Assembly: GCA_009780855.1 (NCBI GenBank)
Contig: WQZG01000005.1
Location: 1-64,000 of the forward strand
DNA from: Treponema sp.
GTDB lineage: Bacteria > Spirochaetota > Spirochaetia > Treponematales > Breznakiellaceae
Direction of reading: 5' to 3'
DNA: 64,000 nucleotides
The notes under the pieces are model-generated. The model did not search any database and was not told the DNA's origin. It saw only the letters and a list, made by a program, of their open reading frames with translations. Of the stretch, positions 9,108-49,850 are shown in pieces (position 1 is the stretch's first letter; each line of letters starts with the position of its first letter). The position numbers and the translations under genes were made by a program.

Positions 9108-10532
9108 TTGAATTATATACTTTTTTTCCCGGACGAGATGCGGGCCGAAACGCTTAGCGTGTACGGTCACGCATCTGTAAAAACGCCCAATTATGACCGC
9201 CTTGCCCGCGGGGGCGTTACTTTTGAGCAGTGTCATGTCCAAAACACGGTCTGTTCTCCTTCCCGCTGCAGTCTGATTACAGGCCAGTATGTACACAGCA
9301 TGGGCCACCGGACCCTGTGGAACCTTATTAAGCCGTACGAACATAATTTATTCGGTTATCTTAGGGAAGCCGGTTACGATGTACGTATTTACGGCAAAAA
9401 CGACATGCTTGCCGCGGAATCAATACCTCTGTTTACCGATGAGTTTCACCAGATGCGTCCTGCGGTTAGGGCAAACCATGAGAGCGTGCAGCCCCTGCAG
9501 GAGTGCAATGATTTTCTTTTTAAACCAATAAACGGTAATTACCGGGAACACGGCGATTATGCAAATTTAAAGGCCGGAATGGATTTTATCCGCAGCCGTA
9601 AGAGCGGCGATAAACCTTTTATGCTTTTTTTGCCGCTTACATTCCCGCACTGTCCATATACGGCGCACGAGCCTTTTTATTCCATGTATGATGAAAACTG
9701 CATTGCTCCGTTAAGGCCTGTCTGCGGCAAAAAACCGGATTACCACGGACTGATCCGCAGTTACCGTAATCTGGAAAAATCCAACCTTAAAAAAATACAG
9801 GCTGTCTATATGGGAATGATTTCCTTTACAGACGCGCTGCTGGGCGAACTTATGGATTGTATCGGAGAATCCGGTATAGCCGATGATACAATGCTTTTTG
9901 TCAGTTCGGATCACGGAGATTATGCCGGCGATTACGGTCTGGTGGAAAAATGGCCTTCCGGCTGCGAGGACGTTCTGACCAGGGTGCCGCTTCTGGTCTC
10001 CGGGCCCGGCTGTCGGAAAGGCTGCAGATCGAACGAACAGGTTGAGCTTTTTGACATAATGCCTACCATTCTGGAAAACGCCGGGATTAAAACAAGACAT
10101 ACCCACTACGCGCGTTCGCTCGCGCCCCAGCTCGCCGGCAAGCCTGGTGATCCGGAACGGGCGGTCTTTTGCGAGGGCGGTTACAATAATAACGAATTCC
10201 ATTGTAACGAAGGCTGTGACCGTGAATCCCGCGGATTCATGAAAGGCCCCACAAACGTTTATTACCCCAAAGGCATGCAGCAGCGCGAACACCGGGATAG
10301 CGTCGGCCGCGCGTCAATGATACGTACGCTTACAAAAAAGTTAGTACTTAGAACTTACGGCGGCAATGAGCTCTACGATCTCCGCGAAGATCCCCTGGAA
10401 CTGAACAATGTGTACGGGGAAAAAAGTTACTCCGGGATACAGGCCGGACTGGAGAGGCGTATGCTGGACTGGTACATAGCTACTTCTGACAGTGTACCGG
10501 AAGAAGAAGATCCCAGGGGCCTGCCTGATTAA
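9108..10532 (+). CDS. Cytosolic Cys-type sulfatase (locus A)
   Basis: 474 residues, formylglycine-dependent sulfatase hydrolysing sulfate esters. The metal-binding Asp lies at residue 9 (FFPDEMRAE), the modification motif C49-S-P-S-R53 is followed by CSLITGQY, and the second metal-site segment SSDHGDYAGDYG lies near residue 265. It has no signal peptide, so it works in the cytoplasm. It starts with TTG immediately after the TAA of the FliG-C-like gene; no other start is possible without losing Asp9. Cys at position 49 needs oxidation by an anaerobic maturase such as the one encoded at 24181-25299. Substrate unknown, presumably delivered by transporter A. Confidence 0.88.
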   Translation: MNYILFFPDEMRAETLSVYGHASVKTPNYDRLARGGVTFEQCHVQNTVCSPSRCSLITGQYVHSMGHRTLWNLIKPYEHNLFGYLREAGYDVRIYGKNDMLAAESIPLFTDEFHQMRPAVRANHESVQPLQECNDFLFKPINGNYREHGDYANLKAGMDFIRSRKSGDKPFMLFLPLTFPHCPYTAHEPFYSMYDENCIAPLRPVCGKKPDYHGLIRSYRNLEKSNLKKIQAVYMGMISFTDALLGELMDCIGESGIADDTMLFVSSDHGDYAGDYGLVEKWPSGCEDVLTRVPLLVSGPGCRKGCRSNEQVELFDIMPTILENAGIKTRHTHYARSLAPQLAGKPGDPERAVFCEGGYNNNEFHCNEGCDRESRGFMKGPTNVYYPKGMQQREHRDSVGRASMIRTLTKKLVLRTYGGNELYDLREDPLELNNVYGEKSYSGIQAGLERRMLDWYIATSDSVPEEEDPRGLPD

Positions 10533-17634: not shown

Positions 17635-17663
17635 TTGACAAGCATTCATAATATTTTTAAGAT
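17635..17663 (+). promoter_or_regulatory. Promoter of the URO-D-like gene, divergent from the permease promoter
   Basis: TTGACA (17635-17640) and TAAGAT (17658-17663) with a 17-base spacer precede the gene at 17695. Its -35 lies 50 bp from the -35 of the divergent permease promoter, so one regulator could control both. Confidence 0.5.
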
Positions 17664-17694
17664 TTTATACAATCTGATAATTTTTGAGGTTTAC

Positions 17695-18750
17695 ATGAAA
17701 TATGTTGATTTTCCTGCCATCCAAAAAAATTTTGAATATTTCTGGAATCATGAATACTTTGGCCGCTGTGCGCTGCGGTTAACTGCCCCAATAAAACCAG
17801 TGAGTTCACTGATAATCAATAATTACGAGGATATGATTAAGGAATGGTGTGACGGAGAAACCAGGCTTAAGAGAAATCGTACGCTATCTGAAAATACTTA
17901 TTATCTTGGTGAAGCATTTCCGCTTTTTTTTATTAACCTTGGAGCAGCAGGCAATGCAGGATATTTTAAAAATATTAAATATGAGTTTACAAAAGATACA
18001 TTATGGTTTTTCCCGATAAATAACAATGATGAATTAATTTTTTCCAAAGATTCTTTTTTATATAAGTCTACGATTGACTTGGCAAAATATTTTGCTGATA
18101 ACGCAAACGGAGAATTTATTTTAGGCATGCCGGGCTGTTCCAGCAATATTGACGCACTTGCCCATTTGCGCGGGACCGAACAATTATTAATGAATTTAAT
18201 AGACAATCCGGAAAAGGTAAAAGAAGATTTAAAAGCCGTTCAAAAATCATGGTTTGAAATAGTAAATGATGTTTACAGGATAATCAGCAAAAATTATTAC
18301 GGCGGTTCGGCTACATGGCTGGGCACATACGCAAAAGGGTTCCATTCACAGCTGCAATCTGACATATCGGTTATGCTGTCTCCGGATCAATTCGATGATT
18401 TTGTTCTTGAAGATTTGCAATTACAGTCGGAAATTCTGGAATATCCCTGTTACCATCTTGACGGCCAGGAGCAAATTCTGCATCTTGATAAATTACTTTC
18501 GATTAAAAACCTGAGGTTAATTCAATATACATTTTGCGCGGGCCAGCCAACTCCAGCAGAACAGATTCCGGTTTTAAAAAGAATTCAAAAAAGCGGAAAA
18601 TTACTTTTGCTATTTTTGGAACCAAAGTATGTAAAACCCATTCTGGAAAATTTGTCGGCAAAAAATTTATTTATTAATACATCCTGCCGTAATCCGGACG
18701 AAGCTGATCAGATTTTTAAAATAGTCCAGGATTACAGCAAAGAAAGATGA
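17695..18750 (+). CDS. URO-D-like protein (uroporphyrinogen decarboxylase / corrinoid methyltransferase superfamily)
   Basis: About 351 residues, starting at MKYVDF behind a GAGG site. The N-terminal segment FEYFWNHEYFGRCALRLTAP and the later ILEYPCYHLDGQEQILHLDKLL (near residue 255) resemble the URO-D superfamily branch often annotated as trimethylamine corrinoid protein or MtbA-like. True haem decarboxylases keep other residues, so a haem role is unlikely; a methyl-transfer or unknown role is possible. No corrinoid protein gene is adjacent. It sits inside locus B, on the opposite strand, between the binding protein and its permeases. It is noticeably AT-rich. Confidence 0.55.
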   Translation: MKYVDFPAIQKNFEYFWNHEYFGRCALRLTAPIKPVSSLIINNYEDMIKEWCDGETRLKRNRTLSENTYYLGEAFPLFFINLGAAGNAGYFKNIKYEFTKDTLWFFPINNNDELIFSKDSFLYKSTIDLAKYFADNANGEFILGMPGCSSNIDALAHLRGTEQLLMNLIDNPEKVKEDLKAVQKSWFEIVNDVYRIISKNYYGGSATWLGTYAKGFHSQLQSDISVMLSPDQFDDFVLEDLQLQSEILEYPCYHLDGQEQILHLDKLLSIKNLRLIQYTFCAGQPTPAEQIPVLKRIQKSGKLLLLFLEPKYVKPILENLSAKNLFINTSCRNPDEADQIFKIVQDYSKER

Positions 18751-20521: not shown

Positions 20522-21889
20522 ATGAAAAAAACAAATATAGTCTTCATCCTGGTTGATGATATGGGATATGGCGATCTTGGTATATTCGGCGATGGTTCAT
20601 CCAAAACGCCGTGTCTTGACAAGCTGGTTAGTGAGGGTGTTTGTCTGTCCCACTACTATACGCCCTCTCCGGTTTGCGCGCCTGCCCGCGCCGGAATTAT
20701 CACTGGCAGATATCCGCACCGCACGGGCGCAATCGACACTTATGAGGCGTACGGCGTTGACAGGATGTCGCTCAAGGAAACAACGCTTGCCGATATTTTT
20801 AAAAAGAACGGTTACAGAACCGGGCTGGTAGGCAAGTGGCATCTGGGCGCTTTTGGAGATGAATACGCTCCCCGGGGCAGGGGATTTGAGGAGGCTGTCT
20901 GTTTCCGCGGCGGCTGGAGCGATTATTTTGAATTCAAGCTGGATGATAACGGAAAAAAACGCATCGGCAAAGGCGAATATCTGACCGAGGTATTTACCGC
21001 AGAAGCAATTAAGTACATCAGTAACCATAAGAACGAACCTTTCTTCCTTCATGTAACCTATAATGCGCCGCATTTTCCGTTCCAGTGCCCGGATGAATAT
21101 ATGAAGCAGTTCCGCGAGACCGGTAAATTCAACGACACACTGGCCACGCTTTACGGCATGATTAACTGCATGGATAAAGGCGTCGGCGAGATTCTTGATT
21201 GCATTAAAAAATGCGGAATCGAAGACGATACCATCGTTGTATTCGCAAGCGACAACGGCCCGCAGCTTTTCGACAAGGTTGACAGGTATAACTGCCATCT
21301 GCACGGGTGTAAGTGCACTGCCTATGACGGCGGTCTTAGGGTGCCTGCCATAGTCAAATGGCCGGGGAAGATTCCGGCGGATGTACGCGTACACGATTTT
21401 ATTCACGGCTGCGACTGGTTCCCGACCCTGCTTGAGGCATGCGGTTTGCCGGTCCCGGCAGAGTTAAAGCTTGACGGCCGCAGCGTGCTTGGCGCGCTTA
21501 CGCGGCATCCGGATGAATACGGCAGACAGCGCTGCTGGCAGTGGAACCGTCTTACACCGGTTTCCAAATGCAACGCCGCCATACGGGACGGTAAATGGAA
21601 ACTCCTCTGGCCAATAATAAACGAGGCCATGCAGGTACCGGCCGACGCAGATATTCTGGACAGAAAAATGAAACAGGTTGAAGGTTACCCGGCAGAGCTT
21701 GTACCGTACGATGAATCGTTCCGCAAGATTCCGGATCCGTTTCCTGCGGAGCTTTACAATATGGAAGATGATCCGCTTGAACGGAACAACCTGGCGGGCA
21801 AGTATCCGGATTTGGTAAAGCAGCTTACCGTTGATTTTGAGAGCTGGTTTGAAGAAGTAGAAGCAGAGCGCCGCTCCATTACACGCTAA
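20522..21889 (+). CDS. Cytosolic Cys-type sulfatase (arylsulfatase A-like)
   Basis: 455 residues. Metal ligands Asp12/Asp13 (FILVDDMGYGDLG), formylglycine motif C52-A-P-A-R56 followed by AGIITGRYPHRTG, GKWHLG near residue 103 and ASDNGPQLF near 243. This is the canonical arylsulfatase A/GALNS-like arrangement (sulfatase S1 type). There is no signal peptide: the first residues already form the first beta strand. It is followed 18 bp later by a second sulfatase and is divergent from the locus B binding-protein gene. Confidence 0.92.
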   Translation: MKKTNIVFILVDDMGYGDLGIFGDGSSKTPCLDKLVSEGVCLSHYYTPSPVCAPARAGIITGRYPHRTGAIDTYEAYGVDRMSLKETTLADIFKKNGYRTGLVGKWHLGAFGDEYAPRGRGFEEAVCFRGGWSDYFEFKLDDNGKKRIGKGEYLTEVFTAEAIKYISNHKNEPFFLHVTYNAPHFPFQCPDEYMKQFRETGKFNDTLATLYGMINCMDKGVGEILDCIKKCGIEDDTIVVFASDNGPQLFDKVDRYNCHLHGCKCTAYDGGLRVPAIVKWPGKIPADVRVHDFIHGCDWFPTLLEACGLPVPAELKLDGRSVLGALTRHPDEYGRQRCWQWNRLTPVSKCNAAIRDGKWKLLWPIINEAMQVPADADILDRKMKQVEGYPAELVPYDESFRKIPDPFPAELYNMEDDPLERNNLAGKYPDLVKQLTVDFESWFEEVEAERRSITR

Positions 21890-21907: not shown

Positions 21908-23371
21908 ATGAAAGCCATAATGATGATGTTTGATTCGCTTAACCGGAATTTTTTATCGGCCTACGGCTGTGACTGGACAAAGACGCCCAACTTTAAACGC
22001 CTGGCGGACAAGGCCGTTGTTTTTGACAATTGTTGGGCCGGCAGCCTTCCGTGCATGCCCGCGCGGCGTGAACTGCACACGGGCCGGTACAATTTCCTCC
22101 ACCGCAGCTGGGGGCCTGTTGAGCCTTTTGATGATTCAATGCCGGAGATATTACAGAGGGCAGGTGTTTATACCCGCCTTATAAGCGATCATCAGCATTA
22201 CTGGGAAGACGGCGGCGCAACTTACCACCACCGTTACAATACCTGGGAGACTGTCAGAGGCCAGGAAGCCGATCAATGGAAAGGCCAGGTCCGCAAGCCG
22301 GTGATCCCGCCGCATCTGGGACAGCTTGGACCCCAGGAAGTAATTAACCGTTCATACATGACAAAAGAAGAAGACCAGCCCCAGGCCAATGTCTTTAGAT
22401 TGGGCCTGGAATTCCTGGAGCAAAACAAAAATGAAGATAACTGGTTTCTCCACCTTGAGACTTTTGATCCGCACGAGCCGTTCTACTCCATGCAGAAGTA
22501 CAAGGACCTTTATCCCCACGAGTATAACGGCCCGCAGTTTGACTGGCCTCCCTACAGCAAAGTAACCGAAGGTAAGGAAGCGGTGCAGCATGTGCGTTAC
22601 GAATACGCGGCTCTGCTTTCAATGTGCGACGCCTGGCTGGGCCGGCTTTTGGACTTTATGGACGCCAACGATATGTGGAAGGATACACTTCTAATCGTAA
22701 ATACCGACCACGGTTTTTTACTGGGCGAACATGACTGTTGGGCAAAATGTTTCCATCCCTTCTATAACGAAATCGCCCATACTCCGTTTTTTGTCTGGGA
22801 TCCCCGGACCGGTATAAAGGGCCAGAGAAGACAATCTTTGGTGCAGACCATTGATATCGCGCCGACCCTTCTCGATTATTTTAATGTTGGAGTCCCTCCG
22901 GATATGCAGGGCAGGCCGTTAAAGGATGTAATTAAGTCGGATAAACCGATCCGCGAAGGCGCCCTGTACGGGCTGTTCGGCGCCCAGATTAATGTAACCG
23001 ACGGCCGCTATGTTTATATGCGCGATCCTGTCCCGTCAAACAAACCGCTTTATGAATATACCCATATGCCGACCCACATGCGTACATTTTTCTCCTTAAA
23101 GGAAATGGGTACCATGGCAATCGCACCGCCCTTTGCTTTTACCAAGGGCGTTCCTGTAATGAAGATTGAAGCTCTGGCCGGTTTCCTTTCCGGGACCGCG
23201 GCGCCGCAGTTCGGGACAAAACTTTTTGATCTTCAAAATGATCCGGGGCAGGAAAATCCGATCAACGATAAAGCCGCCGAGGAACGTATGATCCGCCTGA
23301 TGGTAAAGTTAATGAAGGAAAACGACTGCCCGCCGGAACAGTTTGAACGGATGGGGCTGCGGGATTCTTAA
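21908..23371 (+). CDS. Cytosolic Cys-type sulfatase (SLPCMPARRE subgroup)
   Basis: 487 residues, starting behind GGAGG. Metal ligand Asp9 (MMMFDSLNRNFL), motif C49-M-P-A-R53 inside GSLPCMPARRE, and NTDHGFLLGEHDCW near residue 262 for the second half of the metal site. It is clearly paralogous to the locus C sulfatase at 44883, which has the same GSLPCMPARRE context and similar length. No signal peptide. It shares a transcript with the preceding sulfatase (18 bp gap) and ends 6 bp before the convergent TauE-type gene. Confidence 0.9.
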   Translation: MKAIMMMFDSLNRNFLSAYGCDWTKTPNFKRLADKAVVFDNCWAGSLPCMPARRELHTGRYNFLHRSWGPVEPFDDSMPEILQRAGVYTRLISDHQHYWEDGGATYHHRYNTWETVRGQEADQWKGQVRKPVIPPHLGQLGPQEVINRSYMTKEEDQPQANVFRLGLEFLEQNKNEDNWFLHLETFDPHEPFYSMQKYKDLYPHEYNGPQFDWPPYSKVTEGKEAVQHVRYEYAALLSMCDAWLGRLLDFMDANDMWKDTLLIVNTDHGFLLGEHDCWAKCFHPFYNEIAHTPFFVWDPRTGIKGQRRQSLVQTIDIAPTLLDYFNVGVPPDMQGRPLKDVIKSDKPIREGALYGLFGAQINVTDGRYVYMRDPVPSNKPLYEYTHMPTHMRTFFSLKEMGTMAIAPPFAFTKGVPVMKIEALAGFLSGTAAPQFGTKLFDLQNDPGQENPINDKAAEERMIRLMVKLMKENDCPPEQFERMGLRDS

Positions 23372-23377
23372 CCGGAG

Positions 23378-24184
23378 TTAAGCGGGAATTAAAATAGAAG
23401 ATTTTACCAGGTGGAACAGCGAAAGCAGCATTACGCTTATCAGTATTACCCTGAATAATTTATCTACCTGGCTATTGTTCATGTCCTGGTAAACAGCCGA
23501 TCCCATAAGGCCGCCGATTACCCCGCCAGAGGCCATTGTTATCAATATTGCAATGGGTACCTGCGGAACACTTTTGGTAACTATGGAAATTAACAGGCTG
23601 GCAAGCTGCGACAGGCAAATAACATAAATCGAATACAGGCTGGTTGTTTTGCTTTCCATCCCCAAAAAATATGAAATTATCATTATGTTAATCGGGCCGC
23701 CGCCTATCCCCAGGAACGCGGATACCATTCCCATAAAAAGACCCAGCAAAAAACAAACAATAATATTGCGGACAGTAAGCGGAGTTATTTTGTTTTTGTT
23801 GAGCATGTAAAAAAAAGCGGCGGCGCAGAGCAGTATCAGTATTCCCGACTGAATAATCCCGACCAGATTCCGCGCGGCCATTGATATGGCGGCGTTGAAC
23901 GCGAACTTGCCTGTTACGCCGCCCAAAACCCCGCCCAGTGCCAGAACGATTCCGCGGCGGTCAGTGAGTCTGTTGTTTTTAATCCGGTTCTGGAGCATGG
24001 TAACAAAGCTCATGGTCAGGACTGTAGCGCCGGCTAAAAAATTTATTTCTTCAGCCTTTAACGAGAAAAAAGTATCCAGTATCGGTTTGATTATTATGCC
24101 GCCGCCGATACCGCTGATGGCGCCCATAACCGAAGGAATCAGGGCCGTAAAAAAGAAAACGAGAAATTGTTCCAGTGATATCAA
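23378..24184 (-). CDS. TauE/SafE family sulfur-oxyanion exporter
   Basis: 268 residues, eight or so membrane helices with the two internal GIGGG motifs of the family (GAISGIGGGIIIKPI near residue 22 and AFLGIGGGPINIM near 155). Members export sulfite, sulfoacetate or related anions. Its ATGA overlaps the stop of the sulfatase-maturase gene, so the two are translationally coupled, which suggests that it removes sulfate or sulfite set free by intracellular sulfatases. The exact anion is inferred. Confidence 0.82.
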   Translation of the reverse strand: MISLEQFLVFFFTALIPSVMGAISGIGGGIIIKPILDTFFSLKAEEINFLAGATVLTMSFVTMLQNRIKNNRLTDRRGIVLALGGVLGGVTGKFAFNAAISMAARNLVGIIQSGILILLCAAAFFYMLNKNKITPLTVRNIIVCFLLGLFMGMVSAFLGIGGGPINIMIISYFLGMESKTTSLYSIYVICLSQLASLLISIVTKSVPQVPIAILITMASGGVIGGLMGSAVYQDMNNSQVDKLFRVILISVMLLSLFHLVKSSILIPA

Positions 24185-25299
24185 GAGAAATACCGCCTTA
24201 CGGTGTGTCCCAGAGGTTCAAGGCATTTATCCAAAAATTGCTTATAACCGCAGACAGATCCGTACGAAGGGCTGCCGGGAGCGCCGAAGTAAACTACCCT
24301 GTTCATTCTTTTACAGCCGCCGTTGCAGTATTTTAGGTATTTGCAGGTATTGCACAGGGGTGGTAATTTGCGCTCCTCGCTTACAAAAGCCTGCATTACC
24401 GGACTGTCAAAAATTTCGCGCAGGGTGATTTGGGCAAGATTGCCGGAGTTGTATTTATCCAGCACATAGAAGTCGCAGGGGTAAACACTGCCGTCTGCTT
24501 CCACAACATACTGGGCATGGCAGCGGCCGTTGATTCCGCAGGATGACGGGACTCCCCTTAAAAAATAATTGGCCGTATCGTCAAACAGTTTAACGCTGTA
24601 ATAGGTTCCCTTTTCCAGTTCCTTCATCCACCAATAATAAAGCCTGCTGTAAAATGACGCAAACCGGGCCGGCTTTAGCGGGTAGGGGGAAGATTCGCTT
24701 TCATCAAAACTTTCCAGGCAGGGAATAAACTGGATATACATTATTTTTTCGCCAGTTATAAAATTCCATACCTTGTCCGGCATGTCGGCAAGTTCGTTGG
24801 TCAGTACGCAGAGGATGTTGTATTCAGCCTTGTGTTCGTCCATTATTGCTTTGGCCTTCATGCAGGCTTCAAAGGAACCTTCGCCGTTTGCCTTGACTCT
24901 TATGCTGTTGTGGAGTCCGGCGTTAGCGTCGATTGACAGGCCTGTCAGAAAATTGTGCTTCTTTAAAAATCCAGCCCAGCCATCGTCAATCAGCAGGCCG
25001 TTGGTCTGCAGGGCCCAATTGGTTTTAATCTTTTTTTGCGATTTAAATGTATCAACAAAATATTCGAACCAGGGAAGACCCGCAAGCGTCGGTTCCCCGC
25101 CCTGGAAGGCAATTGTGATTTCGTCTCCTTCGTCCAGGTCTTTTTGAATGTTGGCGATGATTTTTTCCGCGGTTTCTTTTTGCATGATCCCGTAGGACGG
25201 ATTTTCGCGGTGCTCGCCTACATCGTGGTAGAAGCAGTATTTGCAGCGCATGTTGCAAAGCGAAGAAGCGGGTTTAATAAGCAGGGAAAGGCGTTTCAT
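24181..25299 (-). CDS. Anaerobic sulfatase-maturating enzyme (radical SAM, SPASM)
   Basis: 372 residues. Oxidises the Cys of sulfatase C-x-P-x-R motifs to formylglycine in the cytoplasm, without oxygen. The radical SAM cluster motif C15-N-M-R-C19-K-Y-C22 is at the N-terminus, QGGEPTLAG near residue 65 is the usual second motif, and the Cys-rich SPASM region for two auxiliary 4Fe-4S clusters lies about 255-350 (CGINGRCHAQY, DGSVYPCDFYVL, CNTCKYLKYCNGGCKR). It overlaps the BASS carrier gene upstream and the TauE-type gene downstream by four bases each. It is the only maturase in the window and could serve all five sulfatases. Confidence 0.93.
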   Translation of the reverse strand: MKRLSLLIKPASSLCNMRCKYCFYHDVGEHRENPSYGIMQKETAEKIIANIQKDLDEGDEITIAFQGGEPTLAGLPWFEYFVDTFKSQKKIKTNWALQTNGLLIDDGWAGFLKKHNFLTGLSIDANAGLHNSIRVKANGEGSFEACMKAKAIMDEHKAEYNILCVLTNELADMPDKVWNFITGEKIMYIQFIPCLESFDESESSPYPLKPARFASFYSRLYYWWMKELEKGTYYSVKLFDDTANYFLRGVPSSCGINGRCHAQYVVEADGSVYPCDFYVLDKYNSGNLAQITLREIFDSPVMQAFVSEERKLPPLCNTCKYLKYCNGGCKRMNRVVYFGAPGSPSYGSVCGYKQFLDKCLEPLGHTVRRYFS

Positions 25300-26321
25300 T
25301 TAGTTTGTTCTCCTGCTGGTTTCTTAAGCATAATTTTCCCTAAAATGGCTGCGACAGACTGCTGGAATACTATTCCCAAAACCGCGGGCAGGGCAGCAGC
25401 CGGCGGGAAAAATTGAATGCCCAGCGTCATTGCGGCGCTGATATTGCGAAGCCCCGATGTAAAAAACAGCGAAACCTGTTTGCTCTCGGCCGGATTACCC
25501 AGCAGGCCCAGGCGCGCTCCCAAAAGCCCTGTGAATTTGCCGCACGCAAAACCCAGTACCGTAAAGCAGATGCACATTGTTCCTATTATCCAAATCCGCG
25601 GGTTGCCGATATTTACCTGCGAAGCCACGGGAGCGACATTTGCCGATATTACCAAAAACAGACAGAGTTTGGAAATAGGGCCAAAATACGGACTTACAGC
25701 TTTGGGAACCGATCCCCGGCTTGTCTCGTTTACAGCGACGCCGATGATTGTAGGTATTACAACCATGTAAATAAGAGACAATGCCATGCCGCTCATGTCC
25801 AGGGCTATTTTTGTACCGAGCAAAAGCCTGACGGTGCCCGGCACCACAAACGGCGCCAGTATTGTATCAATTAGTATGAGCGCCAGCGTAAGGGCCGGAT
25901 CGCCTTTGTATATTGAAACCCAGATAAAACTGGAAACCGCTGTCGGGACCGAATAGACCAATATGTAACCGGATACCGTGTCAGGGCTGCCGCCAAACAC
26001 CAGGCTGCTTATCAGCATGGTCATAACCGGCATAAGGACATGGGCGCTTATAAAGAAAAAAATTATCGGCAGCGGGTTTTTAATTGCCTGGACAAGGTCC
26101 CGTATTCTGAGTTTAAGCGCTCCGGAAAGTGTCATCGCGCCGAACAGCCAGGGGATTAGGGGTTTTAATTTTATATAATATACCGAAAAAATTACTCCCA
26201 GGATTATTCCTGTAGGAGTCAGGGCAGGCATCATGTGTTCCATAACGCCGTTGATTTTATTTGCCGTTTCCGAAAATTTAAAAGTGTTTCCGGGTTTTTT
26301 GCCGTCGCTGCCGGTGTTCAT
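25296..26321 (-). CDS. BASS-family (bile acid:sodium symporter type) carrier
   Basis: 341 residues with about ten membrane helices, matching the SBF/BASS family of sodium-coupled organic-anion carriers (segments ALTPTGIILGVIF, FGGSPDTVSGYILVYSVPTAVSSF, and SLFFTSGLRNISAAMTLG near residue 290, where the conserved discontinuous-helix region lies). It is first in the operon with the sulfatase maturase and TauE-type exporter, so its substrate is probably a sulfur compound or anion linked to sulfatase action; not provable here. The ATG follows an extended -10 box by nine bases with no ribosome-binding site. Confidence 0.78.
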   Translation of the reverse strand: MNTGSDGKKPGNTFKFSETANKINGVMEHMMPALTPTGIILGVIFSVYYIKLKPLIPWLFGAMTLSGALKLRIRDLVQAIKNPLPIIFFFISAHVLMPVMTMLISSLVFGGSPDTVSGYILVYSVPTAVSSFIWVSIYKGDPALTLALILIDTILAPFVVPGTVRLLLGTKIALDMSGMALSLIYMVVIPTIIGVAVNETSRGSVPKAVSPYFGPISKLCLFLVISANVAPVASQVNIGNPRIWIIGTMCICFTVLGFACGKFTGLLGARLGLLGNPAESKQVSLFFTSGLRNISAAMTLGIQFFPPAAALPAVLGIVFQQSVAAILGKIMLKKPAGEQTK

Positions 26322-36827: not shown

Positions 36828-37790
36828 GTGATAGTCTGTATTTACGGTATTATAATGAAAAATTTGGCCCGGCTGATTATTTTTTTCAGTCTTGCTTTTG
36901 TTATCCTGTTTATTTGCTCCGGTTTCTTTAGATTTCTCTCTTCCTGGATAGATTCGGTCCGTGTTATTTCCAATGATACCGAACGCGGGGGAATGCTGCT
37001 TTCTTCTTTTTCGGCCGCTCTTCCAATAAGTCTTTTTATTGGAATTTTACTTGCCCTAAGCTACTCTGTTAGACGGAAGATTCCTGCTGTTTCCAGCATA
37101 ATTACGGTTTTTTTGCTCTCGGTTATTTTTTGTTATGGAATTTTTTTTGGTATCGAAAGAATTCGGGTTTATGATCCCGGTTTCCTGGTTAATTCCGGTC
37201 CCCAAAAAAGGTCCGGTCTTATTTTATCCCAGCAGGATACAAGAGTTGTTCTCTTGGGAGATAGCAATACCCCGGCCGGTTACCCAAGGGTCCTGGCGTT
37301 TCCGGAAAGACCTCTTGTTTACCAGGAATCCGCTCTGGGGCCTGTTTCGGCAACAATTACCCTGCCCATAGAAAAAAATGCCCCCTGGTTTATCCAAAGT
37401 ATATTAATTGATTTTTCACTTACCGCAAGGGAATTTGACACCCGGTACGCCGGTGATCCGCTGTCTTTTTTGGCTTATGTGTGCTCCCTTCTTTTATTTC
37501 TTGCCTGCCTGCGTTTCCTTTTTGGGCTAAGTTCATGGCCCATGGCCAATCTTTTGTTCGGGTTTCTGGTATTCCGCCTTGTCCTAAGCCTGGTGGTATT
37601 TTTAAATTCAACGGAAGTCCAGACTTTTTTAATAACTTTTGCCAATAAACGTATACCGGATTATTTAACAGTACCGTTTGTTTTTTTGGTGTTAAGCGCG
37701 GCTGTTATACTTTATACTTTTTTGGCGTTTCTGGCGCGGCGGAAAAGTATTCATAATGACAGTAGTCATTTTGACAGAGGTCATTCATGA
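36828..37790 (+). CDS. Six-helix membrane protein with central extracytoplasmic domain, function unknown
   Basis: 320 residues from GTG 36828 (AGGA five bases upstream); an ATG at 36855 is the alternative. Three membrane helices (about 15-40, 60-80, 88-110), a beta-rich outside domain (about 113-208) and three more helices (about 213-235, 245-268, 282-305). This topology is that of LptF/LptG lipid-export permeases, but no sequence motif confirms it, so I give no function. It overlaps the next gene by four bases (ATGA). Confidence 0.55.
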   Translation: MIVCIYGIIMKNLARLIIFFSLAFVILFICSGFFRFLSSWIDSVRVISNDTERGGMLLSSFSAALPISLFIGILLALSYSVRRKIPAVSSIITVFLLSVIFCYGIFFGIERIRVYDPGFLVNSGPQKRSGLILSQQDTRVVLLGDSNTPAGYPRVLAFPERPLVYQESALGPVSATITLPIEKNAPWFIQSILIDFSLTAREFDTRYAGDPLSFLAYVCSLLLFLACLRFLFGLSSWPMANLLFGFLVFRLVLSLVVFLNSTEVQTFLITFANKRIPDYLTVPFVFLVLSAAVILYTFLAFLARRKSIHNDSSHFDRGHS

Positions 37791-39589
37791 AAAAATTTGA
37801 CCCTCAAAAGCTCCTATCCCCGCATTCGTTGTTTTTGCTTTATTTAATATTGTCTTCCGCTGCGATCATGGGATTTAAGATGATTTTTCCCGGCAGTATC
37901 CCGCTTCCGTTTTTTTCTGCATCCTGGCGTTTAATTACCGGAGGGGAAACCTTGATCCAGCTATTCCCCGCATTGGCCCTGTCCGCGCTTGTAATCCCGT
38001 TTGGCGTTCATTTTAATCCGCAGGAAAAATATAGTTCATTTTCGCCTAAATTCCTCAATGATCTTGGCCCGTTTATTTTTAACGCGATTTTTTCTGCAGC
38101 CATATACGCCCTGGCTTCTCTTTTGATACTGCCGCTTACATTGAATTATAAAACCGATCTGGAAGCAAAGGCACGGCTTTTTTATCTTTCCGAAGAAAGG
38201 GCCCGCGTCCACGCCGGCCAGGGTGAATGGCAGGAGGCGGCGCAGTTTCTGGATATTTGTAACAGGATTTGGCCGGACGCTCCCGAACTTGCCGGCCTCC
38301 GTACGGAAACTTCAATACGGCTGGATGAGATTAGCCATAAACAGGAACCTCTTCCAAAAGGGACGCTTACTACCAGGTATGATTTAACCACTCCAAAGCC
38401 TGTTAACGCGGCGCAGGCTCTGGCCCTGGCAGATGCGGCAATGAAGGAAGAAAGATATTTTGACGCGCATTGGCTTGCTACATTGGCCGGTGATCTTGCC
38501 GGTCCCGGCAGCTCCGAATCGGCCGCTTCCGCAGCGCTGGCAAGCCGGGCCTGGAACGCTGTATCTTCACTTGAACCAAATGCCCGCCAGAGCGAGGCGT
38601 ACAGGATTTACTACCTCAAGCGGGACGCCTACAGGGCCCTTGTCTCAAACGAATGGATACAGGCTTATTATCTTTTCCGCGATCTTTTGTCGGCGGCTCC
38701 CGGCGATCCTGACGGTCAATATTTTCTGAGCCTAAGCGAACAGGGCCTTATCCGCATGGCTTTTTTTATTGACGAGATCGAACTTAGGGACAGCCCTGAC
38801 GGAGCCCTTCTTTCTGTTCCGTACAATGACGGCGGCTCAGCAGGCGGCCGGCTCGTTATTCGTTTTAAATCCCTCTCAATGTACCCGGATGTTGCCTACG
38901 GAATCGGTGCAGAGATCCTGGCCTTTGATTATTCCGGCAGGCAGCTCTGGCGTATTGACGCGCCCTATGCCAAAATAGTCCCCCTGTCTATTCGACAGGA
39001 CTTGTCTATTGGACAGGACTTATCTAACGGGCAGCAAAATACCGGGCCACGGATTTCCATCCTTATGCATGCCCTGGACAGAATGGACGCAAACCTGAGC
39101 TGGAAACCAACCGCCGTCAGCTTTGCCGGCGTTGCTCCGGTAAACACCCAGATATCCCTTGATTTAAACTGGGATGACTTTGTACTGCTTTCCGGCATCA
39201 GCCGGGGTTATGATAACCTGAATCCCGCTCAACTGATAGCCGCCGCCGGTCTTGGTCCGGACTACGGTTATCTGCCGCAGATTTTCCAGGCGCAGGCGAT
39301 CAGCAGGTTTACGGAACCTGTATTGTTCCTGCCGCTTTTAATATTGATTCTGGCTGCTGCCTGGCGTTTCAGGGCCCCGGTCAGGCCGCGTTACATGTGG
39401 CTTCCCATGCTTGGAATTCTGCCAGTGGTTTTTAACGGCGTATTTATGCTTTACCGTTACCTTACAGACAATCTGACCATCTGGACAGTGATCGGTCTTG
39501 GTTTTTCGATGGTTGTCTTTTTGTTTTCTGCCGGGGTTCTTGTTCTGTTTATTCTTTCGCTTATTATCCTTGCGGCCCAGCGCGGCTGA
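37787..39589 (+). CDS. Large membrane protein with TPR-like extracytoplasmic region, function unknown
   Basis: 600 residues. Helices near 12-30, 55-75 and 88-115, then a long domain: about 125-330 looks like degenerate TPR repeats (LFYLSEERARVHAGQGEWQEAAQFLD; ALADAAMKEERYFDAHWLATLAGD; YYLFRDLLSAAPGDPDGQYFL), about 330-500 is beta-rich, and three helices follow near 510-530, 538-560 and 568-598. The six-helix frame with a large insert mirrors the preceding gene. It is the middle member of a three-gene operon that ends with a J-domain protein. Confidence 0.55.
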   Translation: MKKFDPQKLLSPHSLFLLYLILSSAAIMGFKMIFPGSIPLPFFSASWRLITGGETLIQLFPALALSALVIPFGVHFNPQEKYSSFSPKFLNDLGPFIFNAIFSAAIYALASLLILPLTLNYKTDLEAKARLFYLSEERARVHAGQGEWQEAAQFLDICNRIWPDAPELAGLRTETSIRLDEISHKQEPLPKGTLTTRYDLTTPKPVNAAQALALADAAMKEERYFDAHWLATLAGDLAGPGSSESAASAALASRAWNAVSSLEPNARQSEAYRIYYLKRDAYRALVSNEWIQAYYLFRDLLSAAPGDPDGQYFLSLSEQGLIRMAFFIDEIELRDSPDGALLSVPYNDGGSAGGRLVIRFKSLSMYPDVAYGIGAEILAFDYSGRQLWRIDAPYAKIVPLSIRQDLSIGQDLSNGQQNTGPRISILMHALDRMDANLSWKPTAVSFAGVAPVNTQISLDLNWDDFVLLSGISRGYDNLNPAQLIAAAGLGPDYGYLPQIFQAQAISRFTEPVLFLPLLILILAAAWRFRAPVRPRYMWLPMLGILPVVFNGVFMLYRYLTDNLTIWTVIGLGFSMVVFLFSAGVLVLFILSLIILAAQRG

Positions 39590-48263: not shown

Positions 48264-49850
48264 ATGATAAAAAAGAGTTTAATTGTGTTTTCTTTTTGTG
48301 CAGCAATGCTGCTGGTTTTTGCGGCCTGTTCAAAACCCGCTGTAACAGCAACAGCGCCTGTAAAATCAACTGCCGCTGTAAATGCTGCTTTGCCTGCTGT
48401 GACTCCTGTGACGTTAAAAATTATGCAATCCTACAACTCTGTAACACGGCCGTACTCGGAAATAGAATTATGGCAGCGTTATGAAAAACGCACAAATGTT
48501 ATTATTAACTGGATAAGTGTTACTGATACCGAACGAAACGAAAAACGTAATCTTTCAATTGCATCCGGTGATTTACCTGATGCATATTACCGCTGCGGTT
48601 TTACAAACGCAGACCTACTTTCTTACGGAATGGATGGTATTTTTATTAACCTCATGCCGCTTATTCCGGATTACGCTCCGAATTTTAAGGCAATGATGGA
48701 CTCAGATCGTGCAGTAAGCAAAGGTATTACACAGGCTGACGGTAATATATATTCGCTGCCCTTCCTTTGTGATTTCCTTTCTGCAAATTACGGAACCAAA
48801 ATTTTCTATAACAGCAAATGGCTGGATGCAGTAAAACTGACCGAACCTGCAACAATAACGGAATTTACAAATCTTCTGAGAGCATTCAAGAATGCAAATC
48901 CGGGCGGAGGTGAAAAATGCATTCCCCTTGAATGCAATGATCTTCCGGGGATCGTTCTTTATCTGCAGGGAATGTTCGGACTTCAGAACCGCGGTTCCGC
49001 CACCAATTGGGTTGATATGGATCCAAATACAAACAAACTTCGATTTTACCCTGCCGCTGACGAATATCGCAGCGTAATGGATTATACACATCAGCTTTTT
49101 GCTGAAAAACTAATAAATCCCGATATATTTACCAACAATCTGAATTTGGCCGGAGCTAATCTGCAAAATCAGTTTGTCGGCGCTTATATTGCAGTTAACC
49201 CGGTTGCAGCCGGACAATATTCAGCTGATTATATTGGCGGAGGCGTGATGGCCGGGCCGACCGGTATCAGGCTTGCCAATGGAATTAATCCTAAAATGCG
49301 CGATCCGGGTGCATTTACAATCACCAAAGTCAATCAATATCCGGAATTAACAATGAGATGGGAAGATTATTTTTATTCTGAAGATGGCATCAGGGAATTT
49401 TTTATGGGATGGGAAGGCGAGACATATACGATAGATAACGGTGTTTATAATTATGTGCCTTATATAACAAACAATCCAAACGGCCTGACGCTTGATCAGG
49501 CTGCAAGCCAGTTTGTTCCATGGCCCGGCGCCGGTCAGCCAACATTGCAAACTGAAATGTATTCCAAGGGCGGCGCTTCAATGCCGGAAGCAGTAGCTGC
49601 TACCCGTAAATCAGAACCGTATTTCCCAAAGGAAATATGGGCGCCATTTACCCATACGGCAGCAGAGAGTGACAGGATCAATGCATTACAGGCTGATCTG
49701 AATAATTGTATTGGTGAAGCGAGAGCCAATTTTGTCACAAACGGTGTAACAGATGCCACCTGGAACAAATATCTAAGTGATCTTAAATCCATTGGTTTGG
49801 ATGAATTCATGCAAATTGAACAGGCAGCCTATGACAGATATATAAAATGA
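48264..49850 (+). CDS. Sugar-binding lipoprotein of ABC transporter C (LplA-like)
   Basis: 528 residues behind AAGGAGAG. The signal peptide ends in a lipobox, LLVFAAC with Cys21, so the protein is lipid-anchored; an Ala/Thr/Val-rich linker (22-50) follows. The binding domain shows LPDAYYRCGFTNADLLSYG near residue 95, DGNIYSLPFLCD near 155 and a C-terminal IGLDEFMQIEQAAYDRYIK typical of these proteins. It captures substrate for the two permeases upstream. A rho-independent terminator follows. Confidence 0.9.
   Translation: MIKKSLIVFSFCAAMLLVFAACSKPAVTATAPVKSTAAVNAALPAVTPVTLKIMQSYNSVTRPYSEIELWQRYEKRTNVIINWISVTDTERNEKRNLSIASGDLPDAYYRCGFTNADLLSYGMDGIFINLMPLIPDYAPNFKAMMDSDRAVSKGITQADGNIYSLPFLCDFLSANYGTKIFYNSKWLDAVKLTEPATITEFTNLLRAFKNANPGGGEKCIPLECNDLPGIVLYLQGMFGLQNRGSATNWVDMDPNTNKLRFYPAADEYRSVMDYTHQLFAEKLINPDIFTNNLNLAGANLQNQFVGAYIAVNPVAAGQYSADYIGGGVMAGPTGIRLANGINPKMRDPGAFTITKVNQYPELTMRWEDYFYSEDGIREFFMGWEGETYTIDNGVYNYVPYITNNPNGLTLDQAASQFVPWPGAGQPTLQTEMYSKGGASMPEAVAATRKSEPYFPKEIWAPFTHTAAESDRINALQADLNNCIGEARANFVTNGVTDATWNKYLSDLKSIGLDEFMQIEQAAYDRYIK

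Follow-up and report, generated by a model that had tools for sequence, protein, structure and literature searches.

A candidate link between sulfatase activation and sulfate export in a gut-type spirochaete

Cells that desulfate sugars in the cytosol must dispose of the sulfate, and no exporter for sulfate released by cytosolic sulfatases is described in the open-access literature that we searched. A locus in a 4.0 Mb, gut-type spirochaete assembly (Treponema sp.; G000) bears on this question. In the 64,000-nucleotide stretch analyzed here (the window), genes for a BASS-family carrier, a sulfatase maturase (anSME) and a TauE/SafE-family carrier form a minus-strand run at 26321-23378. An earlier note on this DNA had proposed that a coupled exporter of sulfur oxyanions relieves sulfate build-up, and had cast both carriers in that role. 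Does either of them export sulfate? Our analysis favors a narrower answer, to which we assign a probability of about 0.6: the unit joins sulfatase activation to product disposal, with TauE as the sulfate exporter, its substrate and direction being read from gene context.

Genes and junctions of the locus

The features of the locus are as follows.

25296-26321, minus strand: BASS/SBF-family carrier, 341 aa (PF01758, 72 bits; ASBT-type PDB match, E 2e-24; orthologs in relatives beside uxaC/uxaA/kduI)
25296-25299, minus strand: ATGA, shared by the BASS stop and the anSME start (read from the sequence; equal 4-base overlap in genomes G016 and G034)
24181-25299, minus strand: anSME, 372 aa (4K37, E 4e-84; Radical_SAM and SPASM; TIGR03942, 312 bits, under the cut-off)
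24181-24184, minus strand: TTGA, shared by the anSME stop and the TauE start (read from the sequence; Shine-Dalgarno-like taaggcggt 7 bases upstream)
23378-24184, minus strand: TauE/SafE putative exporter of a sulfatase-associated subfamily (GxGGGxxIKPxxD), 268 aa (PF01925, 87 bits; clade, alignment and model)
21908-23371, plus strand: sulfatase, Cys-type (CMPAR), without signal peptide (PF00884)
20522-21889, plus strand: sulfatase, Cys-type (CAPAR), without signal peptide (PF00884, 220 bits)

Gene identities and coordinates were verified in the sequence, and Pfam domains and coordinates agree with the earlier placement of the three genes. The same note had read ATGA at both junctions. This is correct for BASS/anSME (25299-25296), but the anSME/TauE junction reads TTGA, which rules out ATGA there and still gives a 4-base overlap (24184-24181). 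TauE thus starts with TTG, seven bases downstream of a good Shine-Dalgarno sequence, and the N-terminus obtained from this start agrees with those of homologs in the alignment. We infer that anSME and TauE are translationally coupled on one message. Past TauE, on the opposite strand, lie the two Cys-type sulfatase genes, the nearer of which is convergent with TauE, the two stops lying 6 bp apart.

The window anSME is a radical SAM/SPASM protein whose predicted role is formylglycine formation on Cys-type sulfatases. Its best PDB match is the characterised C. perfringens anSME (4K37), and it shares with this enzyme and the TIGR03942 maturases the radical SAM plus SPASM layout, the CxxxCxxC motif, auxiliary cysteines and a YPCDF motif. 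C15, C19 and C22 are invariant and eight or more other cysteines are aligned, as expected of a radical SAM/SPASM protein. Unlike TIGR03942 maturases, it falls under the NCBIfam equivalog cut-off (311.7 vs 349.45 bits), and its gene overlaps a carrier gene on both sides. The nearest named matches are from Treponema MAGs. A second anSME gene, cut by the end of contig C50 (L040:12714-14361), implies that the window locus is not the sole sulfatase activator of the genome. It is preceded by a dienelactone-hydrolase-like gene, and a similar protein also precedes an anSME-like gene in genome G033.

The window genome has 78 sulfatase matches on more than 30 contigs, five of them in the window (at 9108, 14316, 20522, 21908 and 44865). 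We recovered 75 for signal-peptide and motif scoring, and 74 of these scored without a signal peptide, in line with the intracellular location that the earlier note had assumed. The apparent signal of the remaining one vanishes with an internal start (MGKPDIL), and on our reading of the sequence it looks mis-started. By scripted motif search, 71/75 have a Cys-type site; in the other four the pattern was not detected. ABC importer genes occur within 4 ORFs of at least 43 sulfatases. No ATP-sulfurylase was found in this genome, matches to PAPS_reduct were weak only, and the sulfate set free apparently cannot be activated by the host. The lack of signal peptides, the nearby ABC importers and the missing ATP-sulfurylase together make this a host suited to sulfate export.

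Recurrence of putative exporter genes beside anSME

TauE matches PF01925 with 87 bits against a cut-off of 32.6, and its predicted model (pLDDT 91) has two helix breaks, both at GGG motifs. It forms a clade with the anSME-adjacent TauE proteins of loci L044 and L046 and one protein from G016 (support 97/99), outside which four other TauE proteins of the window genome fall. Twelve aligned members of this subfamily share G.GGG..IKP..D and a second motif, GGGP.N. Searches of PDB by sequence gave no credible match to the window TauE. By fold, the sole notable neighbor was BacA/UppP (E 4.5e-3, TM 0.55-0.57), a likeness of low significance that is suggestive at most.

Among 296 Spirochaetota genomes, the TauE subfamily occurs in 23, and anSME is present in 20/23 of these vs 29/273 of the others. 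Counted by genus, the co-occurrence has P 4e-7, or 6e-5 after removal of the genera from which seed sequences came. The association has exceptions: in genus g91, the subfamily TauE lies in unrelated neighborhoods (seven loci examined), and genome G143 carries it and has neither a sulfatase nor an anSME match. A second TauE gene of the window genome (L222:2520-3656, contig C31; 378 aa), outside the window subfamily, lies directly downstream of a sulfatase gene within a sulfatase cluster.

Adjacency was scored in anSME loci gathered from public genomes (80) and from searches of relatives and the phylum (51); after one duplicate and the unscorable loci were dropped, 124 remained. TauE occupies 17/238 slots adjoining anSME vs 4/713 slots at least 4 genes away (Fisher 8e-8), and CHR (chromate-transporter) genes occupy 8/238 vs 6/713, both comparisons being uncorrected for kinship between loci. 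TauE, CHR or a YeiH-family gene adjoins anSME in 25/124 loci, on the same strand in 22; about 80% of the surveyed loci have no such neighbor. Four-base anSME/TauE overlaps occur in enterococci too (GTGA or ATGA). In G033, a gene of the YeiH ('sulfate exporter') family lies upstream of anSME and a TauE gene is convergent to it, and in G307 anSME, TauE and two CHR genes stand together. Nearer relatives of the window locus also include loci without an exporter beside anSME (L034, L042, L045 and L047, of which L042 is incomplete), and the TauE ortholog of G016 was not seen beside its anSME.

This distribution does not suggest a single origin. The exporter-neighbor label requires 23 changes on the anSME tree, 20 of them forced by strongly supported branches, which argues against one inherited block. 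A single clade of anSME-adjacent TauE proteins was likewise not supported, the label needing 8 changes on the TauE tree. We also considered a contrast between loci with exported and with cytosolic sulfatases. The exporter is absent at all loci with clear lipoprotein sulfatases, which number about 6 and include some mis-called starts, and the contrast was set aside as too small to count. Among the surveyed loci, a Butyrivibrio sequence (L079:7171-10613) holds a row of TauE, anSME and a CitMHS/ArsB-type carrier, another two-carrier unit around anSME.

The BASS carrier and rival explanations

The BASS protein has an SBF domain (PF01758, 72 bits vs a cut-off of 24.3), scores under the cut-offs of TIGR00841 and PanS, and matches bacterial ASBT-type transporters in PDB. 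E..MQN is the sodium-site motif of ASBT-type symporters. The window protein lacks it: IEVGMQN of a solved relative aligns with FTSGLRN, and the BASS orthologs likewise read GLRN or GMRN at this position. Orthologs occur in 17/35 members of the family, 11 of which are without anSME, and several adjoin uxaC, altronate/galactarate dehydratase (uxaA), a mannitol-type dehydrogenase or kduI. These contexts make an organic-acid carrier more likely than a sulfate carrier, and the latter assignment was rejected. Judged by its neighbors, the protein probably serves hexuronate/uronate catabolism, its gene having later joined that of anSME.

That both carriers export sulfur oxyanions, as the earlier note held, is accordingly quite improbable. 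In favor of that version, the 4-base BASS-anSME overlap is kept in three genera (the window genome, G016 and G034), and BASS is present in each of the six family members that carry anSME (P 0.008, not corrected for kinship). Against it stand the 11 anSME-less genomes with the ortholog and its hexuronate neighbors, together with the failure to see BASS adjoining anSME at any surveyed anSME locus outside this family. The complete BASS-anSME-TauE order appeared in the window genome only. The three-gene unit instead divides into a recurrent anSME-TauE pair and a BASS-anSME pair confined to the three genera. What stands of the earlier proposal is that anSME recurrently adjoins TauE or other putative exporters in Spirochaetota and Bacillota; BASS as a second exporter does not.

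The single occurrence of the full order might also be taken to mean that anSME and TauE became neighbors by operon drift, with no functional link. The enrichment of TauE in adjoining slots, its repeated independent occurrence there, the recurrent overlaps and the phylogenetic co-occurrence of the subfamily with anSME leave this explanation very little probability. TauE could instead export another anion freed together with sulfate, such as an organic acid, sulfite or a sulfonate, its link to anSME reflecting the catabolism of sulfated substrates in general. For TauE/SafE proteins, export of sulfite, sulfoacetate and 3-sulfolactate has been reported, and sulfamate is the cargo proposed for one of them (PMC10413263); G143, with the subfamily and no sulfatases, also fits such a role. 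But sulfate is the only product common to all sulfatases, and CHR and YeiH, families linked to sulfate-like anions, hold the same place in other loci; we consider another anion unlikely. Gene context thus supports sulfate export well for TauE, and not for BASS.

Proposed role and related systems

In the sulfate-export reading that we favor, sulfated oligosaccharides would enter the cytosol via ABC importers, and anSME would convert the active-site cysteine of cytosolic sulfatases to formylglycine. The activated enzymes would set sulfate free, and TauE, translated by coupling from the same message as anSME, would carry it out. BASS, encoded upstream on what would be the same message, would most likely transport not sulfate but an organic acid from the breakdown of uronates.

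Each related system shares part of this arrangement. The TauE of Cupriavidus sulfonate metabolism belongs to the same Pfam family and exports a sulfur-oxyanion waste, as proposed for the window TauE; its waste is sulfite, whereas that of the window protein, a distinct subfamily (GxGGGxxIKPxxD) coupled to sulfatase maturation, would be sulfate. A pneumococcal PTS/sulfatase island (PMC3283741) has a sulfatase, a sulfatase-modifying factor and, adjoining it, a TauE-family protein that is mentioned in passing with its role unassigned. That island differs from the window in using PTS rather than ABC uptake, in lacking BASS and in having no export role proposed. The acesulfame clusters (PMC10413263, PMC11500405) combine ABC import, cytosolic sulfatase-type hydrolysis and a TauE-like protein proposed to remove the anion product, much as we propose here. 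They differ in the enzyme (metallo-beta-lactamase type in Bosea/Chelatococcus), in the absence of anSME and in the proposed cargo, sulfamate. Beyond such passing or related mentions, a recurrent pairing of anSME with an exporter is not described in the open-access literature searched.

The pair recurs in many other gut anaerobes, sometimes with an exporter from an unrelated family, which suggests that removing waste sulfate is an integral component of sulfatase systems inside the cell. A broader generalization, which we advance tentatively and hold at a little below even odds, is that anaerobes with cytosolic sulfatases have repeatedly built a dedicated sulfate-export module beside the sulfatase activator from unrelated exporters (the TauE subfamily, CHR and YeiH). 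Such a module, if real, would be the intracellular counterpart to the release of sulfate outside the cell by exported sulfatases. The pair provides named candidate sulfate exporters in culturable gut bacteria, would give a large TauE subfamily and some proteins of the CHR and YeiH families an assigned substrate, and bears on how the sulfate of host or algal glycans reaches gut sulfate reducers.

Several window ORFs without a Pfam match lie outside the run described here, all on the plus strand. One of 371 aa (17635-18750) is flanked by ABC permease genes and the gene of a solute-binding protein. Three further long ORFs occupy 36828-37790, 37787-39589 and 48264-49850, the last of which comes after a sulfatase gene and two ABC permease genes.
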